Positions 1 through 64,000 of a stretch of 64,000 nt of DNA are shown here, piece after piece. The DNA lies in assembly GCF_010119545.1 (NCBI RefSeq), contig NZ_JAAEAA010000002.1:186001-250000 (forward strand), in the 5' to 3' direction. This stretch comes from Pontibacter fetidus (GTDB lineage Bacteria; Bacteroidota; Bacteroidia; Cytophagales; Hymenobacteraceae). The first letter of the stretch is position 1. The number at the start of each line of letters is the position of its first letter. The notes under the pieces are model-generated. The model had not been told where the DNA came from. It made no database searches and saw nothing but the letters and a program-made list of their open reading frames with translations. The translations under genes and the position numbers were made by a program.

Positions 1-161
1 ATATTTCGCCGCTGGCCCTGCGCGTTACTGAAAACAACGACAACCAAACGTACTTTGATCTGAAACAGGTTCGCAAGCGTAAGGACAAAGAAAAAATAAA
101 AAGCAAGGTTCGCGATTTAGCTACGCAGCATGGCTTTGAAGTAACTGAAGCAAGTAAGTAA
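1..161 (+). CDS. C-terminal end of an unidentified protein (partial, 5' end outside the window)
   Basis: An open frame beginning at base 3 runs to a TAA at 159-161 and gives about 52 residues rich in Lys, Arg, Asp and Gln, ending FEVTEASK. A strong hairpin terminator follows within 20 bases, so this is the genuine 3' end of a gene. The fragment is charged and soluble-looking, with no membrane segment. I do not recognise the family from this tail alone. The direction is opposite to dnaA, and the two genes converge on a 320-base repeat-bearing spacer. Confidence 0.6.
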   Translation, partial: ISPLALRVTENNDNQTYFDLKQVRKRKDKEKIKSKVRDLATQHGFEVTEASK

Positions 162-180
162 CCAATAGGTTAAACTATAA

Positions 181-225
181 AAAGCTCGGGCTATACTTTT
201 ATCAAGTATAGCCCGAGCTTTTTTT
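181..225 (+). terminator. Intrinsic terminator after the first gene
   Basis: A perfect 18-bp stem (181-198 with 204-221) has a 5-base loop and runs straight into a T tract ending at 225. The stem contains the GCTATACTT word that is common across the window. Confidence 0.9.
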
Positions 226-259
226 GTGTATAAGTTGCCCCAATTTTCCTTAACGATTT

Positions 260-364
260 CATCACCCTGCCCCCTTCAAAGGGGGACTTTATCTACTAAC
301 ATAAAACATTTTTTTGAATTAAACATTGCTGATCGTCTCTCTTTGAAGGAGATAGGGGGATGAC
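260..364. repeat. Inverted pair of CCCCCTTCAAAGG-type intergenic repeats
   Basis: Bases 260-288 (CACCCTGCCCCCTTCAAAG followed by GGGG) and 337-364 (CTTTGAAGGAGATAGGGG) are imperfect inverted copies of one another. Relatives of the same C-rich/G-rich element occur at 21131-21172 and throughout 26785-27180. The rest of 226-489 contains no convincing gene. Confidence 0.6.
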
Positions 365-412
365 TTACGGCAACCATGAAAAGTAGTTAGCTGTGAAGAT
401 TCATCATCCATC

Positions 413-458
413 GGCCAGAGGCCAAACTATAGTATTTCACGAGCGAGGACGCTCGCGC
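413..458. repeat. REP-like element, inverted copy of part of 49355-49400
   Basis: The segment starts GGCCAGAGG, carries CTATAG, and ends in a GAGCG-AGGA-CGCTC hairpin at 441-454. Twenty bases at 439-458 match the reverse complement of 49355-49374 exactly, and the GGCCAGAGG and AAACTATAG parts also match there in the same order. It therefore belongs to the dispersed family that brackets the RAYT gene at 11.9-12.5 kb. Confidence 0.65.
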
Positions 459-480
459 TATTGTTTATAGTTCAGAACCC

Positions 481-526
481 TTAAAAACAAACCAGGGCTA
501 TAGTTTTTGCAACTATAGCCCTGGTT
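481..526 (-). terminator. Terminator of dnaA
   Basis: A perfect 16-bp stem (490-505 with 511-526) has a 5-base loop. Read on the minus strand it is followed by TTGTTTTTAA (490-481). It lies 21 bases beyond the dnaA stop codon. Both arms carry the CTATAG core. Confidence 0.85.
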
Positions 527-546
527 ATTTATAAAGTAGAGTTTTT

Positions 547-3012: not shown

Positions 3013-3018
3013 GGCTTT

Positions 3019-5758: not shown

Positions 5759-5779
5759 CGGGCAATATATAAACTATAG

Positions 5780-7093
5780 TTATTTCTTCCCCTTCCCCTC
5801 CATATAGTTCAGCGTTAAATGCGTAAGCGTTTTTACGCCCAGTTTCATACCTGCCTCATCAATATAGAAATCAGGAGTGTGGTGCGCGGGTGCTTTTTCA
5901 GGATTAGTGCCCTTTTTCATGCCGCCTACAAATAGGTATAAACCCGGAATTTTCTCCTGGAAAAAAGCAAAATCTTCGGCACCCGTTACTGCTTTGGTCA
6001 GGATCACGTTCTCGCGACCAGCTACGGCTTGCAGGGTTGGCAGCATCTTTTCAGTTAAGGCAGGGTCGTTGTAGGTCACCGGCGTTTGCGGATGGAAAGA
6101 TACTTCGGCAATTGCACCGGCACTTTCGGCAATTTTAGTGGCAGTGAGCTTTACCTTTTCATGTATCTTTTTCTGCATGTCGGTGTTCAGAGCGCGTATA
6201 GTTCCTTCCATCTTCACCTCTTCGGGTATAATGTTATTCCGCACACCTCCATGTATACTTCCTACAGTAACTACAGCCGCATCTTCAGCCAGTTCGGTTT
6301 GGCGGCTAATTATAGTTTGCAGGCCGTTAATGATCTGTGCCGAAACCACGATCGGGTCTACGCCGGCCCACGGGTAAGCGCCATGCACCTGTTTGCCCTT
6401 TACATTTATCCTGAAAATATCGGCGCTGGCCATAGTTCCGCCCGGCCTGTACTTTAGCTGCCCAACTTCGGTCTGGGAATTTATGTGAAGTCCGAAAATA
6501 ACTTCCGGTTTAGGGCCTTTGGTCAGCACACCTTCTTTTACCATCAGATAAGCACCGCCTTCTTCTCCAACCGGGGAGCCTTCTTCGGCAGGCTGAAAAA
6601 TAAACTTTACCGTACCTTTCAGGTCTTTTTTCATGCTTGCCAGAATCTCGGCAGCGCCAAGTAGCATGGCAATATGGGTATCGTGTCCGCAGGCGTGCAT
6701 TACGCCTACCTCCTGGCCGTTGTAGGTACTCTTTTCTTTAGATGCAAAAGCCAGGTCGGCGCGTTCGGTTACAGGCAATCCGTCTATATCGGCACGAAGG
6801 GCCACTACAGGTCCGGGCTTGCCGCCTTTTAGTATACCAACCACGCCGGTTTTAGCCACGCCGGTTTCTACTTCAATGCCCAGGCGTTTTAACTCAGCAG
6901 CAATTTTGGCGGCCGTTTTGGTTTCGCGGTTACCCAGCTCGGGGTACTGATGGAAGTCGCGGCGCCATTCTATTACTTTCGGCTCCAGTTTATCGGCCAT
7001 GGTGTTGGCCCGGGCAAGTAGTTTGGTATCCTGGGCAGTGGCAGGCAAGACAAGCAGTCCGGCACCAAGTATAGTCAGTAACGTTTTATGCAT
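5780..7093 (-). CDS. Exported M20-family amidohydrolase (hippurate / IAA-amino-acid hydrolase type)
   Basis: This is a metal-dependent amidase of peptidase family M20D that cleaves N-acyl amino acids or similar amides. A signal peptide (MHKTLLTILGAGLLVLPATAQ) places it in the periplasm. Family motifs are present: WRRDFHQYPELG, ADIDGLPV, the HACGHDTH metal site, FQPAEEG, FGLHIN, and TGAEDFAFF near the C-terminus. The length of 437 aa is usual for exported members. The gene stands alone, with a terminator at 5711-5758 and an upstream spacer shared with the divergent YkvA-like gene. The exact substrate cannot be read from the sequence. Confidence 0.92.
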   Translation of the reverse strand: MHKTLLTILGAGLLVLPATAQDTKLLARANTMADKLEPKVIEWRRDFHQYPELGNRETKTAAKIAAELKRLGIEVETGVAKTGVVGILKGGKPGPVVALRADIDGLPVTERADLAFASKEKSTYNGQEVGVMHACGHDTHIAMLLGAAEILASMKKDLKGTVKFIFQPAEEGSPVGEEGGAYLMVKEGVLTKGPKPEVIFGLHINSQTEVGQLKYRPGGTMASADIFRINVKGKQVHGAYPWAGVDPIVVSAQIINGLQTIISRQTELAEDAAVVTVGSIHGGVRNNIIPEEVKMEGTIRALNTDMQKKIHEKVKLTATKIAESAGAIAEVSFHPQTPVTYNDPALTEKMLPTLQAVAGRENVILTKAVTGAEDFAFFQEKIPGLYLFVGGMKKGTNPEKAPAHHTPDFYIDEAGMKLGVKTLTHLTLNYMEGKGKK

Positions 7094-7685: not shown

Positions 7686-9518
7686 ATGACGGACGAGAAC
7701 AAACATACTCAGAAGCTATTCTCAGAATTTACTCCTGCCACGGCAACCGACTGGGAAGAACGCGCCCGCAAAGACCTGCGCGACACCCCATTGGAGCAGC
7801 TTACCTGGCACACCTACGAAGGCATCGACATTAAACCCTACTATACCAGGCAAGACCTGGACCAACTGCCTGCTACCCGGCAAAAACCGGGCAACTACCC
7901 GTTTACACGGGGTACCAGAACTGCTGCAAATACATGGCTTAACATACAGGAAATAAAAGTAGAAGGCAACGGAAAACCTGCTATAGATAAAGCCGCCGAT
8001 GCCCTGACCCGGGGCGCTGACGGCATTCATTTTATACTTCCGCAGCCCGAGCTTTTTGATATCGTATACCTGCTTAGCAAAATAGACCTGAACAAGCATA
8101 CTGTAAGCTATACTTTACCCAACAAGCTCGACCATTTCCCAAACAGGCTTTATGGTAAACTTGGCGCAAACAATGTGTCGCCGCAAAAGCTATGTGGTTT
8201 TATAAAGTATGAACCCATGACGGCTAAAGGCGAACTTACCAGGGACGAGAACAAAGCCATTGTAGAATTACTGGAACTTACCAAAGATAGCCCTGAGTTT
8301 TATGGCATTACCATTAACGGTACCAACTTCAGCAGCATTGGTGCTACAACTGTACAGGAGATAGCGTATACCCTGAGTGCCGCTGTAGCCTATATACACC
8401 GCCTGACCAATGCCGGGCAAACCGTGGAAGATGTGCTGCGCAACATGCAGTTTCATATGGCGGCGGGTACCAATTACTTTTTCGAGATTGCCAAGTTAAG
8501 AGCCCTGCGTTTGTTATGGGCAACTATAGTAGAAGCCTACAGCGCAGATAAAGCGCTTGCCGGCAAACTACGCATCCATAGCTCTACATCGGGTTGGTAC
8601 CAAACCACCCTGGACCCTTACGTGAACATGCTGCGCGTAACCACCGAGGCCATGTCGGCAGTAATGGCAGGCACCGATTCGCTCACTGTTTCTCCGTTCG
8701 ACAGTACATTTAAAGCATCAGATGAATTTTCGGAGCGCATTGCCCGCAACGTTTCTATTATTCTGAGAGAAGAAGCTTATCTGGATAAAGCCATCGACCC
8801 TGCTGCCGGCTCCTATTATTTAGAGTCGCTGACAGACCAGTTGGCTACCAAAGCATGGGAGTTGTTTAAAGAAGTGGAAAGCAAAGGTGGTTTTGAAGCT
8901 GCCTACGAAAGTGGTTTTATACTTGGCTCCATCACCGAAGTTAGCCGCCAGAAGTTCCGCGACATTGCCAAAGGCAGCATGATACTGGTTGGTACAAACA
9001 AATACCCGAACCCGAAAGAGAAAATAGACTTTGACCCGGAAGAACTGATCCAGAGCGAAGCTTTTGATACCACCCGTGCCGCCTACCCAACCGAAGTAAT
9101 GCGTATGGCTACCGAGCTGCATTTGCGCAAGCGTCAGCGCCGGCCTAAAGCTATAGTTGCCATTATAGGCAACGGTGAGCAGCGCCAGGTAAATGCTACG
9201 TTTGCCAAAGAATTCTTCAGTTGTGCCGGCTTCGAGACTGAAATGCAAAACTATAGTTCCGTGGAAGAAGCATCTGATAAACTACAGCATACAGCAGCAG
9301 AAATACTGGTTGTATCATCTTCAGAAGCGAACTATGTGAAGGAATTTGGTCCACGCATCCGTAACCACCACGCCAAACCAACCTTAATTCTGGCCGACGA
9401 CCCGCAGCACATGAAAGCTGAAATGATCGCAAACGGTTACGACGAGTTCATCTTCGAAGACTGCGACATGGGCACCATCCTGGAGATCGTACACAAAAAA
9501 TTGCACGGAGATAAGTAA
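7686..9518 (+). CDS. mutA: Methylmalonyl-CoA mutase small (beta) subunit
   Basis: This is the non-catalytic partner of the B12-dependent mutase that interconverts methylmalonyl-CoA and succinyl-CoA, linking propionyl-CoA to the TCA cycle. It has 610 residues: an N-terminal TIM-barrel-like mutase domain (DWEERARKDL, FHMAAGTNYFFEIAKLRALR, IDPAAGSYYLESLT) and a C-terminal flavodoxin-like domain that lacks the cobalamin-binding DxHxxG, as expected for the small subunit. The gene encoding the catalytic subunit begins 56 bases downstream on the same strand, so the two form an operon. The assembly GTPase MeaB is encoded 8 kb away at 19648. Confidence 0.95.
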   Translation: MTDENKHTQKLFSEFTPATATDWEERARKDLRDTPLEQLTWHTYEGIDIKPYYTRQDLDQLPATRQKPGNYPFTRGTRTAANTWLNIQEIKVEGNGKPAIDKAADALTRGADGIHFILPQPELFDIVYLLSKIDLNKHTVSYTLPNKLDHFPNRLYGKLGANNVSPQKLCGFIKYEPMTAKGELTRDENKAIVELLELTKDSPEFYGITINGTNFSSIGATTVQEIAYTLSAAVAYIHRLTNAGQTVEDVLRNMQFHMAAGTNYFFEIAKLRALRLLWATIVEAYSADKALAGKLRIHSSTSGWYQTTLDPYVNMLRVTTEAMSAVMAGTDSLTVSPFDSTFKASDEFSERIARNVSIILREEAYLDKAIDPAAGSYYLESLTDQLATKAWELFKEVESKGGFEAAYESGFILGSITEVSRQKFRDIAKGSMILVGTNKYPNPKEKIDFDPEELIQSEAFDTTRAAYPTEVMRMATELHLRKRQRRPKAIVAIIGNGEQRQVNATFAKEFFSCAGFETEMQNYSSVEEASDKLQHTAAEILVVSSSEANYVKEFGPRIRNHHAKPTLILADDPQHMKAEMIANGYDEFIFEDCDMGTILEIVHKKLHGDK

Positions 9519-17959: not shown

Positions 17960-17975
17960 GTTTCATAACTATAGT

Positions 17976-19376
17976 TTATAGCAACTGCGGCTTGCCAATT
18001 TTAAACCTTAGGAAGCCCATGGCAAACGAAGCGCCCGGGTTGCTTTTAGTGAAAGGTGCTGTTACGTCGCGCATACCAATACCAAACTCATACACCGGCG
18101 AAGTAATGGCAAAACCAAAAGGGATATTCAGTTTATCACCTGCACCTGTCGAAACGCCTGAGCTCAGACGGAAAACCGGAACCGGGGAGAAATCGATGCC
18201 TAAGCCAACAAAATCATCGGCTAAATTGCCTGGCGCTTTGTTAAGCGGAGCTACATAGTCTACACCTACTTCTACGCGCTGGCCAATTTTAACCCCAGCA
18301 CCAAAACGGAAACGGGTTGGCAGGTTTACTTTCATTTCGCTTACCGGGGTAAATACCAGGGCACTGTCAACTATAGTTCGGGCTACTTTACCGGCATCTT
18401 TCCAAAAATCCTCATCCGATCCATTCTCAGCCAGGTCTTCTAACTTAAAGCCTTTGTCTTGTCCTTCCAGCAGATTTTCGGTCCATTTAATGCTACCAAG
18501 GTCTGTAACCGAAGCACTTACTTTTACAATCTTAATGATCTCGGCAGATAAACCTAAGTCTACACCATGCCCACGACCCACCGGGTTCAGTAAGCCATCG
18601 GCGCTGTCGTAGTTAAATTTCGGATCATCCAGATAATCATCATAGTTGGCATCCAGCACCGGCGAAAAAGCATTGTAAGCTTTTACCTTGCCCCCTTTGG
18701 CACTAAACTCATACAAGCCCAGGCCCTGCAGATACTTATACCCTGCCCCACCGTAAATATTGATCAATGGCAGGTCAATTATTTTGCGTCCGAAGGCCAG
18801 GTTCCATTCATTTACCCACGACATTTTTACTTCAGAACCATCAAATAGATCTGATACTAAAACGGTCTCGTCGGGCGCTACTTCGTTAAACACCGAAGCA
18901 TCTTTCCCTAAAAACAACAGCTCTGAAAAGTTCTTGTTAAAGCCAACATGCCCTAACATACGCTGCCTGTTGCTTACCGCAAAGCCGCCTATTTTTGGCA
19001 CGCTCACTGATATGGCCAGTGTGTTTACATCGGCGCCCAGGTTAAGCACGTTATCGCTGGTAAAGGCACGAGCCAGTTTCTGGCGTTCTTCCAGGCTCAG
19101 GGTTGTTTCCGACGAAAACTTGATCGCACTTTTCAGGGTTTGTCGGGTAAAGGCCTGTGAACTATAAAACCCACCAAATTCGGCAACTGTAAACGAAACC
19201 AGTGATGTGCTGCGGCCAAGGTTAGCCGGGTTTACACCAATTGCCTGGTAATCGTGCACAAACGTGTTCTGTACGCCGCCCCGGCTCACCACCGAGTAAC
19301 TGCTGCTCTCAGACTGCGCCATGGCCGTTGCCTGCCCAACCAATAGGGCTGCAGCCGCTAAAAGAACCTTTTTCAT
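17976..19376 (-). CDS. DUF5723-family outer-membrane beta-barrel protein
   Basis: The signal peptide is MKKVLLAAAALLVGQATAMAQ. The 466-residue mature protein begins with YQAIGVNPANLG, a pattern common to FadL/PorV-like barrels of Bacteroidota. It continues with alternating strands and ends in an aromatic/hydrophobic strand (FAMGFLRFKIGKPQLL). It is predicted to sit in the outer membrane. Family members have no defined role; a transport or T9SS-associated function is only possible. It is monocistronic, and the 270-base spacer upstream (19377-19647) is shared with divergent meaB and carries one AACTATAGTT. Confidence 0.8.
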   Translation of the reverse strand: MKKVLLAAAALLVGQATAMAQSESSSYSVVSRGGVQNTFVHDYQAIGVNPANLGRSTSLVSFTVAEFGGFYSSQAFTRQTLKSAIKFSSETTLSLEERQKLARAFTSDNVLNLGADVNTLAISVSVPKIGGFAVSNRQRMLGHVGFNKNFSELLFLGKDASVFNEVAPDETVLVSDLFDGSEVKMSWVNEWNLAFGRKIIDLPLINIYGGAGYKYLQGLGLYEFSAKGGKVKAYNAFSPVLDANYDDYLDDPKFNYDSADGLLNPVGRGHGVDLGLSAEIIKIVKVSASVTDLGSIKWTENLLEGQDKGFKLEDLAENGSDEDFWKDAGKVARTIVDSALVFTPVSEMKVNLPTRFRFGAGVKIGQRVEVGVDYVAPLNKAPGNLADDFVGLGIDFSPVPVFRLSSGVSTGAGDKLNIPFGFAITSPVYEFGIGMRDVTAPFTKSNPGASFAMGFLRFKIGKPQLL

Positions 19377-19647
19377 AAAAACGGTCAGATAATAATTAAT
19401 TTAAAAGGAAGATGTGGTTTATGTTGTGGCTAAGTAGCAGCATCCCAACTAACTATAGTTTAGCCTGTTAAAATAGCGCACCATACAAACCGGGGCGCAA
19501 GTTCAGTTTTTTTCCTGAAAATCAGAATATAGTTCCTATAAATTATAGTTGAAGTAACATTTTACGGCAGCAGGGTTACAGCCACTATGCGGAGCCGTAC
19601 AAACTGTTAACTTTGCGTAGCAAGGCGGCAGCTTTAAACTATAAACT

Positions 19648-20628
19648 ATGGCCAAACGATTTTCTACTGACACTTATGTAAACGGCATCCTGAGCGGGGA
19701 CCGTGTGTTGCTGAGCCGTGCCATAACTATAGTTGAAAGTAAACTGCCTCAGGATCAAGACCTTGCCCAGGAAATCATTGCCAACGTGCTTCCCCACTCC
19801 GGAAATGCAGTACGGATAGGAATTACGGGCGTGCCGGGCGTAGGAAAAAGCACGTTTATTGAAGCCTTTGGTAACTATATAATAAAGCAGGCTGGTAAAA
19901 AACTGGCAGTTTTAGCCATAGATCCCACCAGCCAACGCACTGGCGGCAGTATTTTAGGCGATAAAACCCGTATGGAGTCGCTGTCTGTAAACCCGAATGC
20001 TTTTATCCGTCCTTCGCCGGCAGGCAAATCGTTAGGTGGGGTAACCAAAGCCACCCGCGAAACTATAATTCTGTGCGAAGCTGCCGGTTTTGATGCGATT
20101 ATAGTAGAGACGGTGGGCGTAGGCCAATCCGAAACGGCCGTGCATGCCATGGTGGACTTTTTTCTGTTGCTAATGCTGGCCGGCGCCGGCGACGAACTAC
20201 AAGGCATCAAACGCGGCATTATGGAAATGGCCGATGCCATCGCCATCACCAAAGCCGACGGAACCAACGCCGACAAAGCCAAACTTGCCCGCGCCGAATA
20301 CCAGAACGCCCTGCACCTCTACCCGATGAGCGCCTCCGGCTGGCTGCCTAAAGTATCAACCTGCTCCGCCTTACAACAAACCGGCTTGGACACCATCTGG
20401 CAAACTATAGTTGAGTATTTAAAACTGACCCAAAAGAACGGTTACTTCGAGAAAAAGCGCCGCGAACAGAATTTACTGTGGATGTATGAAGCGATACGTG
20501 AAGGTTTGGAAGAGAATTTTTATGCCCACCAGCAGGTAAAAGCCCAGCTTGCAACTATAGCGGAGCAGGTAAAGCATGGCCAAAAGTCCGCTTTTGCCGC
20601 TGCACATGAGTTGTTGAAGTTAGTGTAA
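19648..20628 (+). CDS. meaB: Methylmalonyl-CoA mutase-associated GTPase MeaB (ArgK family)
   Basis: MeaB is a G3E-family P-loop GTPase that loads and protects the B12 cofactor of methylmalonyl-CoA mutase. The P-loop is GVPGVGKST at residues 61-69. Downstream are IDPTSQRTGGSILGDKTRM, ETVGVGQSE (the G3 region) and ITKADGTN (the G4 NKxD-like motif). The length of 326 aa is normal. It is separated from mutAB (7.7-11.7 kb) by the RAYT cassette and several unrelated genes, so it is transcribed on its own. The composite repeat island begins 63 bases after its stop codon. Confidence 0.95.
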   Translation: MAKRFSTDTYVNGILSGDRVLLSRAITIVESKLPQDQDLAQEIIANVLPHSGNAVRIGITGVPGVGKSTFIEAFGNYIIKQAGKKLAVLAIDPTSQRTGGSILGDKTRMESLSVNPNAFIRPSPAGKSLGGVTKATRETIILCEAAGFDAIIVETVGVGQSETAVHAMVDFFLLLMLAGAGDELQGIKRGIMEMADAIAITKADGTNADKAKLARAEYQNALHLYPMSASGWLPKVSTCSALQQTGLDTIWQTIVEYLKLTQKNGYFEKKRREQNLLWMYEAIREGLEENFYAHQQVKAQLATIAEQVKHGQKSAFAAAHELLKLV

Positions 20629-20717: not shown

Positions 20718-20807
20718 ATCTCGAACTATAGTTGCTAAACTGCTATAGTTCTATAGTTGCCTTTGCTTACTTCTTGAGATAAGCCGCTGTCCTATAGTTT
20801 CTACCAA

Positions 20808-20973: not shown

Positions 20974-21060
20974 ATATTCGATAGCATCTGCCTTAACTAT
21001 AGTTTCTTTATTGCTCTACGTTAAAGCAGATCGGCTTTACTCATGGTTATAGTTCCGTAG

Positions 21061-21172: not shown

Positions 21173-21345
21173 GACCAACCGAAGCTATGAAACTATAACC
21201 ACAACTATAGTTTAAAACCCAATCCCCAAACCCCAAATCCTGTAAATCTGAAAAAATCCCTTTAATCACTGGTCAAGACAAAAACAGCCGGCCCATTTCT
21301 TAACCAGCTGTCTCTGCATCAATAAGTATTTTTAAATCTCTTGTT

Positions 21346-24347: not shown

Positions 24348-24938
24348 ATGAAATTTTTAGCAACTCTTGCCGCTGTCTTTCTGCTTTCGGTAAGCGCATT
24401 TGCACAAGGCAGCGGTTATCAGCTTGGCGATAAGGTCGCAGACTTTACGCTGCAGGGGGTGGGTAACACCAAAGTTTCGCTGAGCGACTTTGCCAACAGC
24501 AAAACCGTAGTGCTGGTATTTACCAACAACACCTGCCCGTACGCCAAACTATACGAGAATCGTCTGGTAACTTTATCAAGCGCGTATGCCAGCAAAGGTG
24601 TGCAGTTCATTTTCGTTAACCCGGGCGTAGGCCTCGGCGAAGGTAGTGAAACCCTGGAAGATATGGCCGCCAAAAACTATAGATTCCCGTACCTGGCCGA
24701 CGAAGGGCAGAAAGTGAGCTCAAGATTTGGTGCTACTAAGACCCCGGAAGTATTTGTGCTGCACAATACCGGCGATAGCTTTATCTTAAAGTACAAAGGT
24801 GCCGTAGACGATAACCCGCAGGTAGAAAGTGGTGTTAAAAGTCCTTATCTGAAAAACGTGATTGATGAAGTATTGGCCAACCGTGCCGTAACAGTAGCTG
24901 ATAAACGTGCCACCGGTTGTTTGATCAGGAAGTATTAA
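24348..24938 (+). CDS. Exported thioredoxin-fold (redoxin/AhpC-TSA) protein
   Basis: I start at 24348, where MKFLATLAAVFLLSVSAFAQ forms a signal peptide; an earlier in-frame start at 24315 lies inside the PPTase gene. The mature chain has the redoxin layout: YQLGDKVADFTLQG, VVLVFTNNTCPYAKLYENRL, VQFIFVNPG and TKTPEVFVL with the cis-Pro. The active site has a single Cys (TCPYAK), not CxxC, so it is not a classical disulfide oxidoreductase. A second Cys lies near the C-terminus (RATGCLI) and could resolve it. It is expected in the periplasm. The stop codon is directly followed by AACTATAGTT and a terminator. Confidence 0.85.
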   Translation: MKFLATLAAVFLLSVSAFAQGSGYQLGDKVADFTLQGVGNTKVSLSDFANSKTVVLVFTNNTCPYAKLYENRLVTLSSAYASKGVQFIFVNPGVGLGEGSETLEDMAAKNYRFPYLADEGQKVSSRFGATKTPEVFVLHNTGDSFILKYKGAVDDNPQVESGVKSPYLKNVIDEVLANRAVTVADKRATGCLIRKY

Positions 24939-24961
24939 ACTATAGTTTAAAATATAAAATG

Positions 24962-26784: not shown

Positions 26785-27180
26785 ACACCCCTGCCCCTCT
26801 CAAGAGGGGAATTTCTTCAAAATATTTATTCCACTCCTCGGAGGGGTTGGGGTGGGTTAACTATTTCAAATAATTCCTAAACTATAAACTCTCCAAAGTT
26901 GTCATCCCCCTACCCCCTTCCAAGGGGACTTTTCAGATAACGTAAAACTATAGTTTAGAATTACGCATTGTGAGTGTCCCCCTTTGAAGGCAGGGCCGTT
27001 AAGTTCTAGCAAATTCTCCCCTTGAGGGGAGCGCAGAGGGGTGTTTGTATTAGCGGGTGAATTTAAAACTGGCTAACAATTGGCTTTTTGGTCCTGAATA
27101 ACACCCCTATAATCCCCTCAAGGAGATAGTTCTCGGCAGAACTTAACGGCCCTGCCTCCTTGGAGGGGGACTTTCTGCCA
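26785..27180. repeat. Cluster of C-rich/G-rich inverted repeats (island B, module 4 and beyond)
   Basis: At least four hairpin units of the CCCCTCTCAAGAGGGG and CCCCTTGAGGGG type follow one another. A perfect 19-bp inverted repeat (26989-27007 and 27138-27156, sequence GGCAGGGCCGTTAAGTTCT) spans 130 bases and contains a smaller hairpin CTCCCCTTGAGGGGAG. The gap 26729-27753 has no gene I can support; it is the largest repeat field in the window. Confidence 0.7.
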
Positions 27181-27244: not shown

Positions 27245-27316
27245 CTACAGAACTATTGCCACGATCAATCTCGAAGCGAGCAAGTTTAAACTATAGTTAC
27301 AGGTCAATAGTAGAAA

Positions 27317-28131: not shown

Positions 28132-28160
28132 AAAGTTTTAAGCATTGGCTTACTAATATT

Positions 28161-28206
28161 GCCCGTAAGGCTGCAACTATAGTTGTGGCTTTACGGGCAT
28201 TTTTTG
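28161..28206 (+). terminator. Terminator of the hemoglobin gene
   Basis: An 8-bp GCCCGTAA/TTACGGGC stem (28161-28168 with 28191-28198) encloses a further hairpin whose tip is AACTATAGTT, followed by ATTTTTTG. Confidence 0.85.
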
Positions 28207-30072: not shown

Positions 30073-30089
30073 GAGTTGATGCTGTAAAA

Positions 30090-42508: not shown

Positions 42509-44608
42509 TTGAGTAACTTCTTCCATACGAAGATCGAGTATCTGAAAGGGATAGGCCCTATGCGTGCCGAGCTGTTGCAGAAGGAGCTGAACATGTATAC
42601 GTACGGCGACCTGATACAACATTACCCCTTCCGTTACTTAGACCGCACCCAGTTTTACCGTATTGCCGAACTCGACGAAAGCATGCCGTATGTACAGGTA
42701 CGCGGGCGTGTAAAAGGCAAGCAACTTTTGGGCGAAGGCCGCAAGCAACGCCTGGCAGCTACGCTTGTAGATGAAGCCGGTGACGAGATGGAACTGGTTT
42801 GGTTTAAGGGTGTGAAATGGATGGAGAAAAGCCTGAAGAACCACACCGACTATATTGTTTTCGGGAAACCGACGGAGTTTAATGGCAAGTATAATATGGC
42901 TCACCCCGAGCTGGAAGAACTTGCCGAAGAAAAGCAAACTACCTCCTTCCTGCAGCCGGTTTACCATACTACCGAAAAACTAAAGGCCCACCGCATCGAC
43001 AGCAAAGTGATCTCTAAGTATATCGAATCATTGCTGAAGATCGCTGCGCCTAACATACACGAAACCCTTTCGCCGGACCTGATAGATCTTTACCGACTCA
43101 CAGACAAACGAAGCGCGCTGCAAAACATACACTTCCCGGAGTCGGTGGAAAAGTATAATGCGGCCAAGTTCAGGCTTAAGTTTGAGGAGCTTTTTTATAT
43201 ACAGTTGCGCCTGTTGCGCCAGAAAGTAGTGCGCCGCGCCGACCTTGCAGGACAGATTTTCAAACAGGTGCCAACGGTTACGGAGTTCTACAAAAACCAC
43301 ATGACCTTCGACCTGACCGGTGCGCAGAAACGGGTTATAAAAGAGATCCACAAAGACATGACGTCGGGCAAGCAAATGAACCGTTTGCTGCAGGGCGATG
43401 TGGGCTCCGGTAAAACTATAGTTGCCTTCATCACCATGCTGATCGCTGCCGATAATGGGGCTCAGTCGGTGTTGATGGCGCCAACCGAGATATTAGCAGA
43501 ACAGCATTATACAGGCCTGAAAGAATTTGCTGACAGGTTAGGTATAAAAATCGGGAAGTTGACAGGATCATCTAAAACAAAGGAACGGCGCGAACTACAT
43601 GAACAGCTCCGCTCCGGCGAAATGAAGATGATTGTTGGCACACATGCCCTATTGGAAGATGTAGTGCAGTTCCATAACCTGGGTTTGTGTATAGTTGATG
43701 AGCAGCACCGGTTTGGCGTTGAGCAGCGATCTAAACTATGGCGCAAAAATCCGCGCATCATTCCCCATGTGCTCGTGATGACGGCCACTCCTATTCCGCG
43801 CACACTGGCCATGACCTTATATGGCGACCTGGATGTATCGGTAATTGATGAGATGCCGGCCGGCCGTAAGGAAATCGTTACCGTGCATCGCTTCGACTCT
43901 CACAGGCTGCGTGTTTTCCAGTTTGTAAGAGATCAGATAAAGCTTGGTCGTCAGATTTATATCGTGTATCCACTGATCGAGGAATCGGAGCAGATGGAAC
44001 AGTATAAGGATCTGATGGATGGCTATGAAAGTATACGGCGGGCTTTTCCGGAGTACCAGGTAAGTATGGTGCACGGCAAACTAAAGCCACAGGACAAAGA
44101 TTACGAAATGCAGCGCTTCGTGAAACACGAAACCCAGATAATGGTGGCTACTACGGTTATTGAAGTGGGTGTAAACGTGCCAAATGCCTCAGTAATGATC
44201 ATAGAAAGTGCTGAACGTTTTGGGTTATCGCAGTTGCACCAGTTGCGTGGGCGCGTAGGCCGTGGGGCCGAGCAGAGCTACTGTATCCTGATGACGGGCT
44301 ACAAACTGAGCAAAGACAGCAAAACCCGCCTGGAGACAATGGTGCGCACTAACAATGGTTTCGAGATTGCCGATATTGACCTGAAATTACGCGGTCCAGG
44401 GGATTTAATGGGTACCCAGCAAAGCGGTGTGCTCGACCTGCTCATCTCTGACCTGGCCAAGGATGCACCTATACTTCAGGAAGCGCGTGCCGCAGCACAA
44501 AACATATTACACGATGACCCCCAACTCGAAAATGCCGAACATCAGAACATCCGCAGGCATATTCAGTCGTTGAGCGCTAATACTGTAAACTGGAGCCGTA
44601 TCAGTTAA
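42509..44608 (+). CDS. recG: ATP-dependent DNA helicase RecG
   Basis: RecG remodels stalled replication forks and branch-migrates Holliday junctions. The 699-residue protein opens at a TTG codon (SNFFHTKIEYLKGIGP is the expected start). It has the wedge/OB domain (about 50-150), then the helicase core: LLQGDVGSGKTIVA (Walker A), LMAPTEILAEQHY, CIVDEQHRFG (Walker B, DExQ), TATPIPRTLAM, and the C-terminal VATTVIEVGVNVPNA and QLHQLRGRVGRG. The RecG TRG-like region follows. Length is normal. It is separated from gldD by the repeat at 42344, so it probably has its own promoter. Confidence 0.96.
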   Translation: MSNFFHTKIEYLKGIGPMRAELLQKELNMYTYGDLIQHYPFRYLDRTQFYRIAELDESMPYVQVRGRVKGKQLLGEGRKQRLAATLVDEAGDEMELVWFKGVKWMEKSLKNHTDYIVFGKPTEFNGKYNMAHPELEELAEEKQTTSFLQPVYHTTEKLKAHRIDSKVISKYIESLLKIAAPNIHETLSPDLIDLYRLTDKRSALQNIHFPESVEKYNAAKFRLKFEELFYIQLRLLRQKVVRRADLAGQIFKQVPTVTEFYKNHMTFDLTGAQKRVIKEIHKDMTSGKQMNRLLQGDVGSGKTIVAFITMLIAADNGAQSVLMAPTEILAEQHYTGLKEFADRLGIKIGKLTGSSKTKERRELHEQLRSGEMKMIVGTHALLEDVVQFHNLGLCIVDEQHRFGVEQRSKLWRKNPRIIPHVLVMTATPIPRTLAMTLYGDLDVSVIDEMPAGRKEIVTVHRFDSHRLRVFQFVRDQIKLGRQIYIVYPLIEESEQMEQYKDLMDGYESIRRAFPEYQVSMVHGKLKPQDKDYEMQRFVKHETQIMVATTVIEVGVNVPNASVMIIESAERFGLSQLHQLRGRVGRGAEQSYCILMTGYKLSKDSKTRLETMVRTNNGFEIADIDLKLRGPGDLMGTQQSGVLDLLISDLAKDAPILQEARAAAQNILHDDPQLENAEHQNIRRHIQSLSANTVNWSRIS

Positions 44609-49350: not shown

Positions 49351-49456
49351 CTGGCGCGAGCGTCCTCGCTCGTGACTAACTATAGTTTGGACCTCTGGCC
49401 CAGTTGAGTTACAAACTCAACATCATAGCAAGGCACGAGTTACAAACTCGCGCCAG
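49351..49456. repeat. REP-like element inside the beta-oxidation operon
   Basis: Inverted edges CTGGCGCGAG (49351-49360) and CTCGCGCCAG (49447-49456) enclose hairpins CGAGCG-TCCT-CGCTCG, GTTGAGTTACAAACTCAAC (49403-49421) and a second GAGTTACAAACTC. The architecture equals the arrays around the RAYT gene, though stem sequences differ. Part of it is copied at 413-458. Confidence 0.8.
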
Positions 49457-53955: not shown

Positions 53956-54356
53956 CTATCCATTATACATAGTAATTCTAAGGGAGTAGAAACCCATATC
54001 AAAGCCGTCATGTATAATCTCTTTAAGGTGGTTTAAATCAATAGAACGATATAATGTATAGACCTCTTTCAGATCAACTGAGTCTAACTCTCCAGTATAG
54101 TTAGCCTTAATACTTAAATCATATAGTTCCCGCAGCCGATAGTAAAACTTACCATCCGGTGTAATTTCTACATCTTTAGAATAGGCTTTTCGCCTAAAGC
54201 TGGGAAGATTGAAAAAGTAATCTTTTCAAACTCTAGTCCATTTGTCTTTTCAGCTTTTACAGGCTGGGCATTATCATCAACTATAGTTTCGGGTTGCTTC
54301 TGCTCTTTACAGGCAAAACAAACTATAGCTAAAACTATAAACAGGCATCTCTGCAT
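53956..54356 (-). pseudogene. Lipoprotein gene broken by a one-base frameshift in a homopolymer
   Basis: The 5' part (from the ATG at 54356) encodes a lipobox signal, MQRCLFIVLAIVCFAC, and a linker, then NGLEFEKITFS, and stops early at 54168. A second frame continues without a start: FRRKAYSKDVEITPDGKFYY, RELYDLSIKANYTGELDSVD and DGFDMGFYSLRITMYNG, to a TAG at 53956. Adding one base to the A5/T5 run at 54212-54216 joins them into a protein of about 133 residues. The joined product vaguely resembles DUF6438-type small lipoproteins. The indel may be a sequencing error or a true null or phase-variable allele. Confidence 0.65.
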
Positions 54357-58074: not shown

Positions 58075-58947
58075 ATGGTTCTTATTGCAGATAGTGGCTC
58101 TACCAAAACAGACTGGAACGCTCTAAACCAGACAGAAGTATTACAGAATGTGCAGACAGTGGGCTTTAACCCCATGTATCAGGAAACAGAAGATATCTTT
58201 AAAGAGTTAGAAAAGAGCCTGCTTCCGAATCTGGATAATAAGAAACCATCGGCTATCTATTTTTATGGTGCCGGCTGCAGCTCTCCGGAGCGAAACAAGA
58301 AGGTATCGGATGCTTTACAGCAATTATTTCCGGAAAGTGAGATACACGTAGACCACGATTTGCTGAGTGCGGCGCGCGCACTTTGCGGCCATAACCCAGG
58401 CATTGCCTGTATACTTGGTACTGGTTCTAACACCTGCCTGTATGATGGCAAAAACATTACCGATAACGTGCCTTCGCTGGGCTTTTTGCTGGGCGACGAA
58501 GGCAGTGGTGCCTACCTGGGCAAATTGCTGATGCGCGCATACTTTTACCGCGAACTTCCGGAAGAACTGGCCCAATCGCTGAAAAATACTTACAACATTA
58601 CCAAAGACGAGTTCCTGGACGCGTTGTACGGTGCTGAAGTGCCAAGCCGCTATATGGCTACCTTTGCCAAATTTGCGCATGATAAACGCAAACACCCATT
58701 CATCAAGGAGCTTATCTATACCAATTTTGAGAACTTTTTTGAGCGCCATGTGCTAAAGTATAAAGGCCACATGGAATTGCCTGTAAACTTTGTAGGCTCT
58801 ATTGCCCACTACTTTTCTGAAAACCTGAAAACCGCTGCTCAAAAGTATGGCCTGCGCATCGATACGATCATCCAAAGCCCCAGCGAAGGCCTGATCAATT
58901 ATCACCAGGAATTACTGATAAAATCCGGAACGGCAAACAAACTATAG
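58075..58947 (+). CDS. BadF/BadG-family sugar kinase (N-acetylglucosamine / MurNAc kinase type)
   Basis: This is a 290-residue ASKHA-fold kinase with the phosphate motifs LIADSGSTKTDW at residues 3-14, the loop ILGTGSNTCLYDG near 113-125 and GFLLGDEGSGAYLG near 136-149. This family includes GlcNAc kinases and the MurNAc/GlcNAc kinase MurK. Its start lies 68 bases after the cytochrome-b5-like gene, and murQ follows 48 bases downstream, which supports a role in peptidoglycan amino-sugar recycling: it would make GlcNAc-6-P or MurNAc-6-P, the latter the substrate of MurQ. The stop codon is embedded in an AACTATAGTT palindrome. Confidence 0.85.
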   Translation: MVLIADSGSTKTDWNALNQTEVLQNVQTVGFNPMYQETEDIFKELEKSLLPNLDNKKPSAIYFYGAGCSSPERNKKVSDALQQLFPESEIHVDHDLLSAARALCGHNPGIACILGTGSNTCLYDGKNITDNVPSLGFLLGDEGSGAYLGKLLMRAYFYRELPEELAQSLKNTYNITKDEFLDALYGAEVPSRYMATFAKFAHDKRKHPFIKELIYTNFENFFERHVLKYKGHMELPVNFVGSIAHYFSENLKTAAQKYGLRIDTIIQSPSEGLINYHQELLIKSGTANKL

Positions 58948-58995
58948 TTTATCTCCAGAGAATAATACATCATTCGTCATTTATAACTAATAAGC

Positions 58996-59811
58996 GTGTC
59001 TACTACCGAATCAGCGTCTAACTACGACAGCCTGGAGCAAATGCCTGTACGCCAGCTGCTGGAAAGTATAAACAACGAAGATAAGACCGTACCGCTGGCT
59101 GTAGAAAAAGCAATTCCGCAACTGGAGCTGCTGGTTAATGCTACTATAGAACGATTGCAGCAGGGCGGCAGGCTGTTTTATATTGGCGCTGGCACGAGTG
59201 GTCGTTTGGGCGTGGTAGATGCATCGGAGTGTCCGCCTACCTATGGTGTGCCGCATGGCATGGTAATAGGCCTTATAGCCGGTGGCGATGCAGCGATACG
59301 CAAAGCCGTAGAGTTTGCCGAGGATGATGAACAACAAGCCTGGAAAGACCTGCAGGAATACGACATTACTAATAAAGATATAGTGGTAGGGATAGCTGCT
59401 TCCGGACGTACACCTTACGTTATCGGGGGGCTTACTACCTGCCGCGAAAATGGTATAGCTACCGGCTGCATTGTTTGCAACGCCGGTAGCGCCGTTGCCG
59501 CCGCCTCCGATTACCCCGTGGAAGTTGTAACAGGACCTGAATTTGTAACCGGCAGCACCCGCATGAAAGCCGGCACCGCCCAGAAACTTGTCCTGAACAT
59601 GCTTACTACCTCTACTATGATCCGGTTAGGGCGTGTAAAAGGCAATAAAATGGTAGACATGCAACTATCTAACCTGAAACTGGTAGACCGTGGCACATGC
59701 ATGCTGATGGATGAACTACAACTGGCAAAACCCGAAGCCGCCGCGTTACTGCAAAAATATGGCAGTGTACGGGCAGCTATAGATGCTTATAATAACGGCC
59801 TTCCTTCTTAA
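58996..59811 (+). CDS. murQ: N-acetylmuramic acid 6-phosphate etherase
   Basis: MurQ cleaves the lactyl ether of MurNAc-6-phosphate to GlcNAc-6-phosphate and D-lactate. The 271-residue protein begins at GTG (58996). It shows the SIS-fold signature GRLFYIGAGTSGRLGVVDAS, then ECPPTYGVPHGMV with the catalytic Glu, VVGIAASGRTPYVIGGL and the second signature GPEFVTGSTRMKAGTAQKLV. The length is slightly short for the family because it lacks the C-terminal UBA-like tail. It follows the BadF-type kinase by 48 bases on the same strand, forming a recycling pair. An AACTATAGTT word sits directly after the stop codon. Confidence 0.95.
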   Translation: MSTTESASNYDSLEQMPVRQLLESINNEDKTVPLAVEKAIPQLELLVNATIERLQQGGRLFYIGAGTSGRLGVVDASECPPTYGVPHGMVIGLIAGGDAAIRKAVEFAEDDEQQAWKDLQEYDITNKDIVVGIAASGRTPYVIGGLTTCRENGIATGCIVCNAGSAVAAASDYPVEVVTGPEFVTGSTRMKAGTAQKLVLNMLTTSTMIRLGRVKGNKMVDMQLSNLKLVDRGTCMLMDELQLAKPEAAALLQKYGSVRAAIDAYNNGLPS

Positions 59812-59831
59812 ACTATAGTTATACGTCTTAT

Positions 59832-61730: not shown

Positions 61731-61745
61731 GGCATTGGTACAAAC

Positions 61746-61958
61746 TTACTGAACTGCAGTTGTATCCATGTTATCAGCTGCATCTTCCATTTGGTCAGCC
61801 TTCTCTTCGCCGGCTTCTTCTATCTGCTCACCTCTTTCTTCGGCAGATTCTTCTACCTGCTCAGCTTGCTCTTCTGTTTTGTTTTCGGTTGCAGAGTCGC
61901 ATGATGCAAATGCAAAAAGGCCAGCGGCCAGCATCATCATAAAAATTGGCTTCTTCAT
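61746..61958 (-). CDS. Small Glu-rich lipoprotein
   Basis: A 70-residue protein: MKKPIFMMMLAAGLFAFASC (lipobox, Cys20) followed by a low-complexity chain of Glu, Gln, Ala and Asp (TEEQAEQVEESAEERG) predicted as a helix. The leader ends AAGLFAFASC, nearly identical to that of the gene at 62132 (VAGLFAFASC), so the two are probably diverged duplicates. No function is known; such small lipoproteins are abundant in Bacteroidota. Confidence 0.7.
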   Translation of the reverse strand: MKKPIFMMMLAAGLFAFASCDSATENKTEEQAEQVEESAEERGEQIEEAGEEKADQMEDAADNMDTTAVQ

Positions 61959-62062
61959 TTTTTATTTGTTTTGGTTTATAAACACTGTAATGTCAGTTAC
62001 CTGCTAACAAACAGCTAACATGAACACGAATACGGTTATAAAGCTATATAGTTCTGAAAAAC

Positions 62063-62094
62063 AAAAAAGGCACCTGTAAACAGGTGCCTTTTTC
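62063..62094 (-). terminator. Terminator of the lipoprotein gene at 62132
   Basis: A perfect 13-bp stem (62064-62076 with 62081-62093) has a 4-base loop, with A runs before and T runs after, so it can act on both strands. Confidence 0.85.
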
Positions 62095-62131
62095 TTCCCT
62101 GGCCATGCGCCAGGCAGTTCTTTGTTGCTAA

Positions 62132-62323
62132 TTACTGAGCAGAAGCAGCAGAATCAACTGGAGCTGAAGTAGTGTCAACTTCAACAGCAGTAGTGTCTTC
62201 AACTACTGTTTCTTCTACTGTAGTTTCAGTAGTTTCAACTTCTGTAGCAGTTTCTTCTGCTTTGTTGCAAGATGCGAAAGCGAAAAGACCAGCAACGAAT
62301 AATAAACCGAATACTTTTTTCAT
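62132..62323 (-). CDS. Small Thr/Val/Glu-rich lipoprotein
   Basis: A 63-residue lipoprotein: MKKVFGLLFVAGLFAFASC (Cys19), then a chain of Glu, Thr and Val (ATEVETTETTVEETVVEDTT). It is the duplicate-like neighbour of the gene at 61746; each has its own terminator. The repeats in its DNA (GTAGTTTCAACT-like) make it a site where slippage could alter length. No function can be assigned. Confidence 0.7.
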   Translation of the reverse strand: MKKVFGLLFVAGLFAFASCNKAEETATEVETTETTVEETVVEDTTAVEVDTTSAPVDSAASAQ

Positions 62324-62401
62324 GATGATTTGTTGTTTTTTTGAAAACGAGTTACAAATATAACACTATATTTTAATCCTATATATATCTTAAAAAATAT
62401 T

Positions 62402-63715
62402 TTACTTCTTTTTAAACAATACCTTAATTGGTACCCCTTTAAACCCGAAATGCTCGCGGATGCGGTTCTCTAAATAGCGGGTATAAGATTCTTTAAGATA
62501 CTGCGGCAGGTTACAGAAAAAAGCAAATGTTGGGTTATGCGTCGGCAGCTGCGTAACATACTTTATTTTAATAAACTTACCTTTAATAGCTGGCGGCGGA
62601 TAACGCTCTATGTCAGGCAACAAGGCATCGTTCAGTTTAGAAGTAGGTATTTTGCGTGTCTTGTTGTCGTATACTTCCATGGCTACCTCAATGGCTTTGT
62701 GTATACGCTGCTTGGTAAGCACTGACGTAAAAATAACCGGCACATACTTTATAGGCGCAATCTTGCTTAGTATCTCCTCCTCAAACTCTTTTGTTGAGTT
62801 GGTATCTTTCTCTACTAGGTCCCATTTGTTTACCAGTATTACTATGCCTTTGCGGTTCTTTTCGGCCAGGGCAATAATATTTACGTCCTGGGCTTCTATA
62901 CCACGGGTGGCATCCAGCATCACAATACATACATCAGCATCTTCCAGTGCACGTACCGAGCGCATCACCGAGTAAAACTCAATGTCTTCGCTTACTTTGC
63001 TCTTGCGGCGCAGACCGGCCGTATCAACTATAATAAACTCTTTGCCAAAAGCATTGTAGTGCGAATGGATGGCATCGCGGGTGGTACCGGCAATGTCAGT
63101 AACTATATTTCGCTCTACACCCAGTAGCAGGTTTACAAACGATGACTTACCAACGTTTGGTCGGCCAAGCACAGCAATTTTAGGAATACCAGCAGTCGGA
63201 TCCTCAATACCTTCGTCTTTAAAGTGCTTTACAACTTCATCCAGCAGGTCACCGGTGCCTGATCCGCTTTGCGATGAGATCGGGTAAATTTCTTCGGCAA
63301 TACCTAAGGCATAAAACTCACCTACCTGGTGTGCGCGCGCGTTGGTATCGGCTTTGTTGGCAACTAAGTATATTGGTTTATCAGAGCGGCGCAGTACGTT
63401 GGCAAATTCTTCATCCAGGCCAGTTAAGCCGGCATCCACATCTACCATAAACAAGATCACGTCGGCTTCTTTAATGGCCAGTTCTACCTGCTTGTTAATT
63501 TCACCTTCAAAAATATCATCGGAGCCGTGCACATAGCCACCGGTGTCGATAACTGTAAAAAACTTACCGCACCACTCACCGTGGCCGTAGCTTCTGTCGC
63601 GGGTTACGCCGCTTTCGTTGTCCATAATAGCCTGTCTACGTCCGACAAGCCTGTTAAATAAAGTAGACTTACCCACATTTGGGCGGCCTACAATAGCAAT
63701 AATGTTTGTTGACAT
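62402..63715 (-). CDS. der: Ribosome assembly GTPase Der (EngA)
   Basis: Der is a double-GTPase that helps assemble the 50S subunit. The 437-residue protein has G domain 1 (IVGRPNVGKST at residues 8-18, DTGGYVHG, ANKAD) and G domain 2 (VLGRPNVGKSS, DTAGLRRKSK, VNKWD) followed by the KH-like domain (LPTHNPTFAFFCN, RYLENRIREHFGFKGVPI). Length is normal. It follows era by about 70 bases on the same strand, a common arrangement. Confidence 0.97.
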   Translation of the reverse strand: MSTNIIAIVGRPNVGKSTLFNRLVGRRQAIMDNESGVTRDRSYGHGEWCGKFFTVIDTGGYVHGSDDIFEGEINKQVELAIKEADVILFMVDVDAGLTGLDEEFANVLRRSDKPIYLVANKADTNARAHQVGEFYALGIAEEIYPISSQSGSGTGDLLDEVVKHFKDEGIEDPTAGIPKIAVLGRPNVGKSSFVNLLLGVERNIVTDIAGTTRDAIHSHYNAFGKEFIIVDTAGLRRKSKVSEDIEFYSVMRSVRALEDADVCIVMLDATRGIEAQDVNIIALAEKNRKGIVILVNKWDLVEKDTNSTKEFEEEILSKIAPIKYVPVIFTSVLTKQRIHKAIEVAMEVYDNKTRKIPTSKLNDALLPDIERYPPPAIKGKFIKIKYVTQLPTHNPTFAFFCNLPQYLKESYTRYLENRIREHFGFKGVPIKVLFKKK

Positions 63716-63784
63716 TATTAAAGTATAAAATAGTTAAAGTGCCCCCGGAGCACCTTGCCCCGAAGCTTTAATACATGCGCCTAC

Positions 63785-64000
63785 TTACTCGCTATAGCCA
63801 AATCGCCTTAACAGCTTTTGGTCTGTTCGCCAGTTTTCGTTCACGCGCACATACAAATCAAGAAATATCTTTTTCTGGAAGAACTGCTCCATATCAATAC
63901 GGGCCTGCATGCCCACTTTTTTCAGTGCTTCGCCCTTGTTGCCGATCACAATACCTTTCTGGCTCTTGCGCTCCACACTAATCTCGGCCCTGATGCGGAT
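63785..64000 (-). CDS. era: GTPase Era, C-terminal KH domain (partial, 5' end outside the window)
   Basis: Only the last 71 residues are present: IRIRAEISVERKSQKGIVIG, then GEALKKVGMQARIDMEQFF and QKKIFLDLYVRVNENWR, ending FGYSE. This is the KH domain of Era, which binds the 3' end of 16S rRNA during 30S maturation. The frame is open through base 64000, so the GTPase domain lies beyond the window. An internal GTG at 63976 is not a start. It is upstream of der on the same strand. Confidence 0.93.
   Translation of the reverse strand: MRIRAEISVERKSQKGIVIGNKGEALKKVGMQARIDMEQFFQKKIFLDLYVRVNENWRTDQKLLRRFGYSE

Follow-up and report, generated by a model that had tools for sequence, protein, structure and literature searches.

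The stretch analysed here, called the window, comprises 64,000 bases (45.8% G+C) of Pontibacter fetidus (Hymenobacteraceae, Bacteroidota), positions 186,001 to 250,000 of contig NZ_JAAEAA010000002.1 in a 4.07 Mb draft genome of 49 contigs. Along its whole length it carries a short asymmetric word, AACTATA, together with a second spelling, AAGTATA. Two AACTATA overlapping by TATA form the palindromic decamer AACTATAGTT, and it was this palindrome, with its core CTATAG, that an earlier note on the same DNA had singled out. The note had estimated about 95 hexamers and 25 decamers where chance would give 18 and 0.1; our counts are 97 and 25, the order 0 Markov expectations are 18.05 and 0.10, and all seven example coordinates given there fall on exact decamers. 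The words and the sites at stop codons and in hairpins are as follows.

1 to 64000, 114 on the plus and 94 on the minus strand: AACTATA, spread over the window (order-2 Markov expectation 13.6); 103 run on as AACTATAG and 76 as AACTATAA
1 to 64000, 39 on the plus and 54 on the minus strand: AAGTATA, probably the ancestral spelling of the genus, persisting in the host genome (order-2 expectation 18.6)
2953 to 2962: AACTATAGTT, two overlapping AACTATA
5772 to 5781: AACTATAGTT
9249 to 9258: AACTATAGTT
17967 to 17976: AACTATAGTT
18369 to 18378: AACTATAGTT
19451 to 19460: AACTATAGTT
19725 to 19734: AACTATAGTT
20403 to 20412: AACTATAGTT
20724 to 20733: AACTATAGTT, first of three decamers in a single gap between open reading frames (ORFs)
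20995 to 21004: AACTATAGTT
21203 to 21212: AACTATAGTT
24938 to 24947: AACTATAGTT, starting on the final base of a TAA stop codon
25868 to 25877: AACTATAGTT
26946 to 26955: AACTATAGTT
27289 to 27298: AACTATAGTT
28175 to 28184: AACTATAGTT, tip of the terminator-like hairpin 28160-28199 (fold of 28150-28215: -31.1 kcal/mol, z -6.5)
30106 to 30115: AACTATAGTT, tip of a terminator-like hairpin, with a T run behind it (fold of 30085-30140: -23.7 kcal/mol, z -6.3)
31343 to 31352: AACTATAGTT
31425 to 31434: AACTATAGTT
43414 to 43423: AACTATAGTT, within recG
49378 to 49387: AACTATAGTT
54279 to 54288: AACTATAGTT
58940 to 58949: AACTATAGTT, its TAG being the stop codon of ORF 58075-58947
59811 to 59820: AACTATAGTT, starting on the final base of a TAA stop codon
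61018 to 61027: AACTATAGTT
35280: AACTATAGG, not a full decamer, at a stop codon
498 to 518: inverted CTATAG pair, part of a hairpin stem (fold of 485-545: -26.5 kcal/mol, z -7.2)

The copies that the earlier note had placed at stop codons (24938, 35280, 59811, 58947) are thus all present, only that at 35280 falling short of the decamer, and its copies in terminator tips were recovered as two decamers among three folded stretches. Its word-free tracts (mutB, rng and 30150-30830) do lack CTATAG, but mutB and rng contain two AACTATA each.

The excess of the decamer is real and larger than first supposed: the whole genome holds 1,087 copies against five of a reversed-word control, and each of 22 genomes searched outside Pontibacter holds at most 12. 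A Markov test, which the earlier note had proposed for the full genome, was made on the window. The decamer is expected 0.10 times at each order from 0 to 2; expectations for CTATAG and the decamer are 13.98 and 0.10 at order 2, 39.9 and 0.76 at order 3, and 82.4 and 6.1 at order 4, where the decamer is still over-represented (25 vs 6.1) and CTATAG barely so (97 vs 82); at the highest orders neither is. CTATAG is so little in excess at order 4 because longer words containing it carry the signal, and models of the highest order are uninformative as a test since the sub-words themselves carry it.

The palindrome is not the unit. Ranked against an order-2 model, the top 7-mer of the window is the non-palindromic AACTATA, with 208 copies on both strands (13.6 expected) against 25 palindromes, and a second word is AAGTATA with 93 (18.6 expected); the extended forms AACTATAG and AACTATAA are expected 2.4 and 3.9 times. 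In the host genome AACTATA occurs 11,674 times, or 2,867 per Mb (reversed-word control 645), AAGTATA 5,110 times (414) and a third spelling, AGGTATA, 1,690 times (321). Across the three dialects, hereafter AAC, AAG and AGG, the overall form is (N)RRSTATA(R) in both orientations, with bases 1-3 being AAG, AAC or AGG according to clade. The decamer is common in the AAC set, with 74 copies in 776 AACTATA; the corresponding palindromes of the other two words are less so, with 19 in 801 words of the AAG set and 23 in 525 of the AGG set. The flank signal around AAC words is strongest from -1 to +9 and weak beyond, and a weak second half-site appears as T at +9 in 0.44, 0.35 and 0.37 of the sites of the three dialects. 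A larger repeat with conserved flanks was rejected, the AAC set being only weakly conserved outside -1 to +9; the scattered flank values in the AAG and AGG sets are provisionally put down to redundancy of orthologous copies.

The spectrum of words one base off is graded. Hardly any change is tolerated in TAT, tolerance in the first three bases comes by degrees, and the seventh base is A, less often G: AAGTATG stands at 5.5 times expectation (1.3 in word-free genomes) and AGGTATG at 2.6 (0.5), with AACTATG at just 2.1 (1.6). Within the TAT core one-off words are hardly raised, the highest reaching 1.78 against 1.12 in word-free genomes, whereas the full word stands at 10 to 17 times expectation against 0.9 to 1.5. 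Such a spectrum, graded around a TAT core, is the pattern that a recognition site would give. For this analysis the AAG set was taken without the L009, L021, L025, L036 and G071 stretches, and the word-free set without L023, L044, L053, L058, L061 and G068. The AAC set was used without the mixed L006 in the flank and spacing, one-off, ComEC-distance and gain/loss analyses, and without the mixed G027, G033 and G071 in comEC-region conservation, ComEC distance and gain/loss.

The spelling changes with the clade. Using the RecG of the window as query, 62 named loci were obtained and the top words ranked in loci of about 22 kb. AACTATA leads at the loci of P. populi, P. burrus, strain Tf4 and isolate 903; AAGTATA leads at those of P. 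vulgaris, ruber, mucosus, chinhatensis, flavimaris, oryzae, arcticus and others; and AGGTATA, as CAGGTATAG, leads at those of P. roseus, indicus, ramchanderi, lucknowensis, virosus, amylolyticus and others. The word does not lead at the loci of P. ummariensis, qinzhouensis, beigongshangensis, Botryobacter, Rufibacter and Adhaeribacter. Weak AACTATA remains are seen in the silvestris/harenae pair (0.45 per kb) and the diazotrophicus/pamirensis pair (0.38 per kb), and a weak, diffuse fourth dialect (GGTATA, GGGTATA, GGTATGG) in strain E15-1 and G069 (L118-L120, L061). In a set of 50 Pontibacter genomes, which overlaps the set of loci, the leading word reaches 4,114 to 13,168 copies in 39. By copy number AAG leads in 22 (among them G007 at just 4.0 times control), AGG in 12 and AAC in six (G000, G018, G027, G031, G060, G065). 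Apart from these, G069 has AGG at 5.7 times control, and in nine genomes every word stays below 4 times control, the highest value being 3.9 (G002). Mixed genomes are G000, G027 (8,118 AAC and 7,552 AAG), G033 (6,094 and 9,116) and G071 (3,531 and 10,614). In the word-free G068 (L134, L135), TATATA/CTATATA is over-represented.

The dialects follow the clades of two gene trees around a common TATA core. In the recG tree (52 rows; 11 of the 62 loci dropped) the five AAC rows form one clade and the twelve AGG rows another, each with SH-aLRT support of 100. The comEC tree (40 rows) likewise unites G027, G000, G033, G065, G031, G060 and G018 (100), and the 12 AGG genomes (100); G071, rich in AAG with some AAC, lies outside the AAC clade. 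Read by eye, the recG tree has AAG in each of the two deep halves of the core genus, which makes it the likely ancestral spelling. In one clade the third base went from G to C, in the other the second base from A to G.

Words are maintained within a dialect and exchanged between dialects. The recG and comEC regions used here are separate loci whose species overlap in part, and conservation and exchange figures count species pairs, not events. In the recG region, words were kept in 457 of 892 (AAC), 3,172 of 5,866 (AAG) and 2,840 of 4,112 (AGG) species-pair comparisons within a dialect, against fractions of 0.287, 0.233 and 0.291 for permuted words; in the comEC region the fractions were 0.522, 0.512 and 0.657 against 0.282, 0.317 and 0.262. 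In either region, words at orthologous places are thus kept 1.6 to 2.5 times as often as permuted words. Across dialects the same word is kept like the controls or worse in the comEC region. In the recG region the fraction of AAG words retained in AAC species is 0.263 (controls 0.225), and two of the five AAC rows there still use AAG. In the comEC region one dialect's word takes the place of another's more often than the same single change occurs in controls: 15/621 vs 17/2935 for AAC to AAG, 18/391 vs 21/2657 for AAG to AAC, and 92/1431 vs 698/27736 for AAG to AGG; a recG-region count of 751/4575 for AAG to AGG is inflated by sites recurring in many species pairs, and the comEC-region controls are preferred. 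Losses, pooled over both regions, are rarer than in controls (136/1,118 vs 1,074/5,171; ratio 0.59, p 5.6e-12) and gains more frequent (32/1,403 vs 1,334/109,763; ratio 1.88, p 0.0013), each row contributing one triplet, with branches partly shared and p-values assuming independent sites. Gains and losses occur at all seven positions of the word. A smaller first version gave loss ratios of 0.49, 0.75 and 0.45, and gain ratios of 2.57, 1.85 and 2.13 on 5, 7 and 8 gains.

Neither codon usage nor transcription nor the polarity of replication accounts for the word. With genes called as plain ORFs, longest first, synonymous shuffles within genes yield 33.4 AACTATA, 68.4 AAGTATA and 30.9 AGGTATA where 257, 417 and 309 are observed, and 0.7 AACTATAGTT where 15 are observed. 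Codon usage and codon pairs, the latter raised in the earlier note as what might explain the excess away, are therefore rejected as its cause. Word density in ORFs is 2.07, 1.60 and 1.40 per kb (AAC, AAG, AGG) and in gaps 7.31, 4.12 and 4.39, peaking between convergent genes at 13.8, 5.7 and 7.2; in the AAC set most copies (275/419) lie inside ORFs, and gaps between divergent genes (7.1 per kb) match those between tandem genes (6.5) in richness. Sense and antisense copies number 168 and 107 for AAC (one antisense frame reads TAG), 230 and 234 for AAG, and 140 and 189 for AGG. The single contig of G031, sampled as 21 stretches of 20 kb, holds 687 forward and 640 reverse words; when each stretch is sorted by the sign of its GC skew, the leading strand has 700 words and the lagging strand 627. 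Word orientation there seems to track gene orientation.

The reading we lean towards, tentatively, is that the word is a recognition word kept by a sequence-specific reader, most likely for the uptake or recombination of self DNA. A reader with changing specificity is suggested because of the strict core, the dialect arm, the clade switches, the mixed genomes and the losses. To judge from the whole-word pattern, a sequence-specific DNA-binding factor would touch the TAT core and read the dialect in the three preceding bases. Whenever its specificity shifted, the genome would slowly be respelt, and the mixed genomes, that of the window included, would be part-way. Fragments bearing the current word would be favoured in uptake or recombination, and the word would accumulate by drive with no separate benefit at each site. 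Uptake or recombination is ranked first for two reasons: drive could multiply sites into the thousands even where the individual site brings no benefit, and the dialects of the Neisseriaceae are closely alike point by point. Slightly less likely is a wider conjecture of a self-DNA recognition system in Bacteroidota that works without type IV pili. In it a receptor or recombination factor would read a clade-specific RRSTATA, and changes of specificity would rewrite thousands of sites and sexually isolate Pontibacter clades, several genomes being caught mid-switch.

Several results weigh against uptake or recombination. ComEC is present in all 50 genomes, word-free ones equally, and so does not discriminate. 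In G009 (C76, TAG) and G022 (C1, TAA) the matched part of its gene is interrupted by an in-frame stop, perhaps through assembly error or recent loss, and G009 is nevertheless rich in AGGTATA. Divergence of ComEC between dialects is barely raised, at a ratio of 1.17 where other genes give 0.81-1.15 and one short gene 1.57. No match of useful length to the type IV pilus/type II secretion ATPase (PF00437) was obtained in the 50 genomes, with 31 of 32-45 first-look candidates scored in most of them and the pilin and secretin families not searched; the best matches are pieces of about 60 residues, and three genomes are just over the cut-off. Exchange from AGG to AAG (99/1900 vs 369/10668) is only 1.5 times control. 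The gains are few (32 in total): six for AAC (p 0.04), 12/581 for AAG (p 0.14) and 14 for AGG (p 0.02), and the turnover results would follow from selection but also from a mutation or repair process recognising the whole word. Words are not evenly spaced, being clumped with a coefficient of variation of 1.2-1.3. Transformation of Pontibacter does not figure among the matches listed in the open-access literature.

To our knowledge, known uptake-sequence systems use type IV pili. The word is not filed as a DNA uptake sequence (DUS) because no type IV pilus motor was found; if that absence holds, its reader cannot be a standard type IV pilus receptor. Bacteroidota as such can be naturally competent, and in Riemerella transformation requires ComEC, DprA, ComF, RecA and four proteins of no assigned function (PMC8459023). 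ComEC itself gives a weak signal and is not claimed as the dialect determinant. The stem branch of the AAC clade measures 0.37 in the comEC tree against 0.11 in the slower-evolving recG tree, which could hint at co-evolution with the dialect or at gene exchange.

The main rival to uptake or recombination, unlikely in our judgement though the most serious, is that an abundant nucleoid-associated or chromosome-organising protein binds the word. Selection would then keep the sites, and the dialect would shift with the specificity of the protein. High density, both orientations, enrichment in gaps, whole-word conservation, the half-site at +9 and the excess of overlapping palindromes in the AAC dialect would all suit such a protein. 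Selection on thousands of individual sites would, on the other hand, impose a heavy load; the clumping is no regular spacing; and several species are word-free or keep weak remains, odd for an architectural protein.

Improbable, in turn, is a by-product model like that put forward for HIP1 (highly iterated palindrome 1) of cyanobacteria, in which a methylase and methylation-dependent mismatch repair make and keep the word; Elhai 2015 links HIP1 and the alternate HIPs to methylases (PMC4390886). The Pontibacter word is as dense as HIPs, most of which number about 500-2500 per Mb, it is clade-restricted, its alternative spellings replace the old one in relatives as in alternate HIPs, and HIP1 one-off words are likewise graded by position and avoid a strict centre (PMC4390886). 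HIPs are palindromic and tied to resident methylases (PMC4390886), whereas the unit here is asymmetric, with gains and losses at all seven positions, and none of the four methylase families tested (PF01555, PF02384, PF07669, PF00145; the Dam-type PF02086 and further families lay outside the test) reaches full strength in every word-rich genome. PF01555 is found in 31 of the 50 genomes and absent from 19, including the word-rich G031, G018, G060, G065, G033, G061, G062, G023, G014, G003, G011 and G036. PF00145 is found in 23 and absent from 27, including G061, G014, G027 and G071. PF02384 (N6_Mtase) has some match in all 50, those of G061 and G006 being weak ones alone (7e-5, 1.5e-4), and PF07669 matches in 47, with weak ones alone in G031 and G060. 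Different enzymes in different genomes could still have a common target. The earlier note's likeness to HIP1 stands as to density, clade restriction and codons not being the cause; the palindromic unit does not stand, and a link to a methylase is not seen in the sequences.

MmeI-type enzymes are natural candidates for a 7-base asymmetric target, and several of the weak PF07669 rows are restriction-methylases of this type, the four proteins that were scanned having Pfam MmeI domains and matching PADLOC REase_MTase_IIG. The three pairs compared are 79-81% identical, differing mostly in the target recognition domain. Among 18 copies this domain is 96% identical between G000 (AAC) and G006 (AAG) and 54% between G000 and G027; in six AGG genomes it is 41-73% identical among themselves, and the copy in G017 is a fragment without it. 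It does not track the dialect, and the enzyme was rejected as a common factor, as were the four Pfam families. As an observation in its own right, the body of this enzyme (L184:2891-6376 on G000 C47; L185-L189, L192-L203) is nearly constant, 88-96% between full copies, and the recognition domain varied, 39-73% apart from the single 96% pair; G061, G004 and G024 have two copies each with different recognition domains. Judging by these comparisons, the domains look as if they had been exchanged often across Pontibacter.

No more credible is a Chi-like role, in which the word regulates a RecBCD/AddAB-type nuclease that spares and recombines its own DNA. Chi is strongly polar in E. coli, and the words here show little polarity, as the strand counts of G031 and the sense and antisense counts of the AAG dialect make plain. 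What they have in common with Chi words is being short, over-represented and variable between species or lineages (PMC3630211). Both the methylation-repair and the Chi model are disfavoured.

Quite implausible is a pure mutational bias or context-dependent mutation without a reader of the whole word. It would also raise gains and lower losses relative to controls, but the excess concerns a word of 7-8 bases that is approached and left at every position, one-offs in the TAT core are hardly raised where the full word is, and the changed base is the third in one clade and the second in the other. That codon usage, promoters or terminators cause the excess deserves practically no credence: words do lie in hairpins, at stops and most densely between convergent genes, yet the synonymous shuffles refute it for genes, both orientations are used, and divergent gaps are no poorer than tandem ones.

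Among known systems, the clade spellings around a fixed core resemble DUS dialects more closely than HIP1. Frye 2013 describes eight DUS dialects in the Neisseriaceae that retain the core CTG, and reports overlapping dyads as well as a genome with two dialects (PMC3630211). Both systems have a short asymmetric word in thousands of copies, dialects along the species tree, an invariant core (CTG there, TATA here), one-base-apart dialects in a single genome (S. muelleri there; G000, G027, G033 and G071 here), overlapping dyad pairs and hairpin copies 3' of genes (PMC3630211). The densest case there is K. oralis with 5,918 copies in 2.4 Mb (PMC3630211), compared with 11,674 copies in 4.07 Mb here. 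Integrative and conjugative elements have been detected there through atypical word distribution (PMC7371117). Unlike the DUS, the present word belongs to another phylum, has 7-8 rather than 10-12 bases, is lacking in some species of its genus, comes without a type IV pilus motor in our search and is known from sequence alone. The uptake enhancing sequences of Haemophilus and Neisseria, treated as molecular drive, similarly show full and one-mismatch words in graded excess, with different words and different machinery (PMC1939737). An 18-base repeated palindrome of Caldithrix abyssi is likewise an unexplained over-represented motif, in another bacterial phylum; unlike the present word it has 38 exact copies, a longer core and a mostly intergenic location, and was compared with repetitive extragenic palindromic (REP) sequences (PMC5317091). 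From REP sequences and bacterial interspersed mosaic elements (BIME) the Pontibacter word differs in lying mostly in ORFs and in its weak flanks. For Riemerella and F. johnsoniae, A/T-rich runs have been listed as k-mers, with their function left open (PMC7965970). In the open-access literature AACTATAGTT, TTATACTT, CAGGTATA and AAGTATAA were not found as whole words, and none of the matches listed names Pontibacter alongside methylases, uptake or over-represented words.

Genome-wide words with clade dialects are known in few groups, chiefly the Neisseriaceae and Pasteurellaceae (uptake) and the cyanobacteria (HIP1, debated). An unrelated case in the Bacteroidota, in a non-pathogenic genus of which many species are in culture, offers a natural experiment with three clear spellings, intermediates and several losses, and makes the spread of a word and the change of its specificity directly testable. 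The reader expected is one present in rich species, changed between dialects and dispensable in word-free ones, and a DNA-recognition protein independent of pili may come to light.

Some minor observations remain. In the window CTAG is scarce (22) compared with GATC (172), and Rfam and tRNA scans of the window returned nothing. Five of 84 bins of 5 kb in G031 hold four words or fewer, and three of these five were inspected: they contain a ribosomal RNA operon; UmuC, a UmuD-like peptidase and an SRAP protein; and ORFs of no assigned function adjoining an HTH_36 protein. A replication-like protein from a poor stretch gave no lead as to plasmid carriage (15 records, each below 60% identity). The word-poor stretches with UmuDC/SRAP and with HTH_36 and large ORFs (L106:15001-20000, L112:1-7200) resemble acquired islands, and word density could serve for finding such islands.

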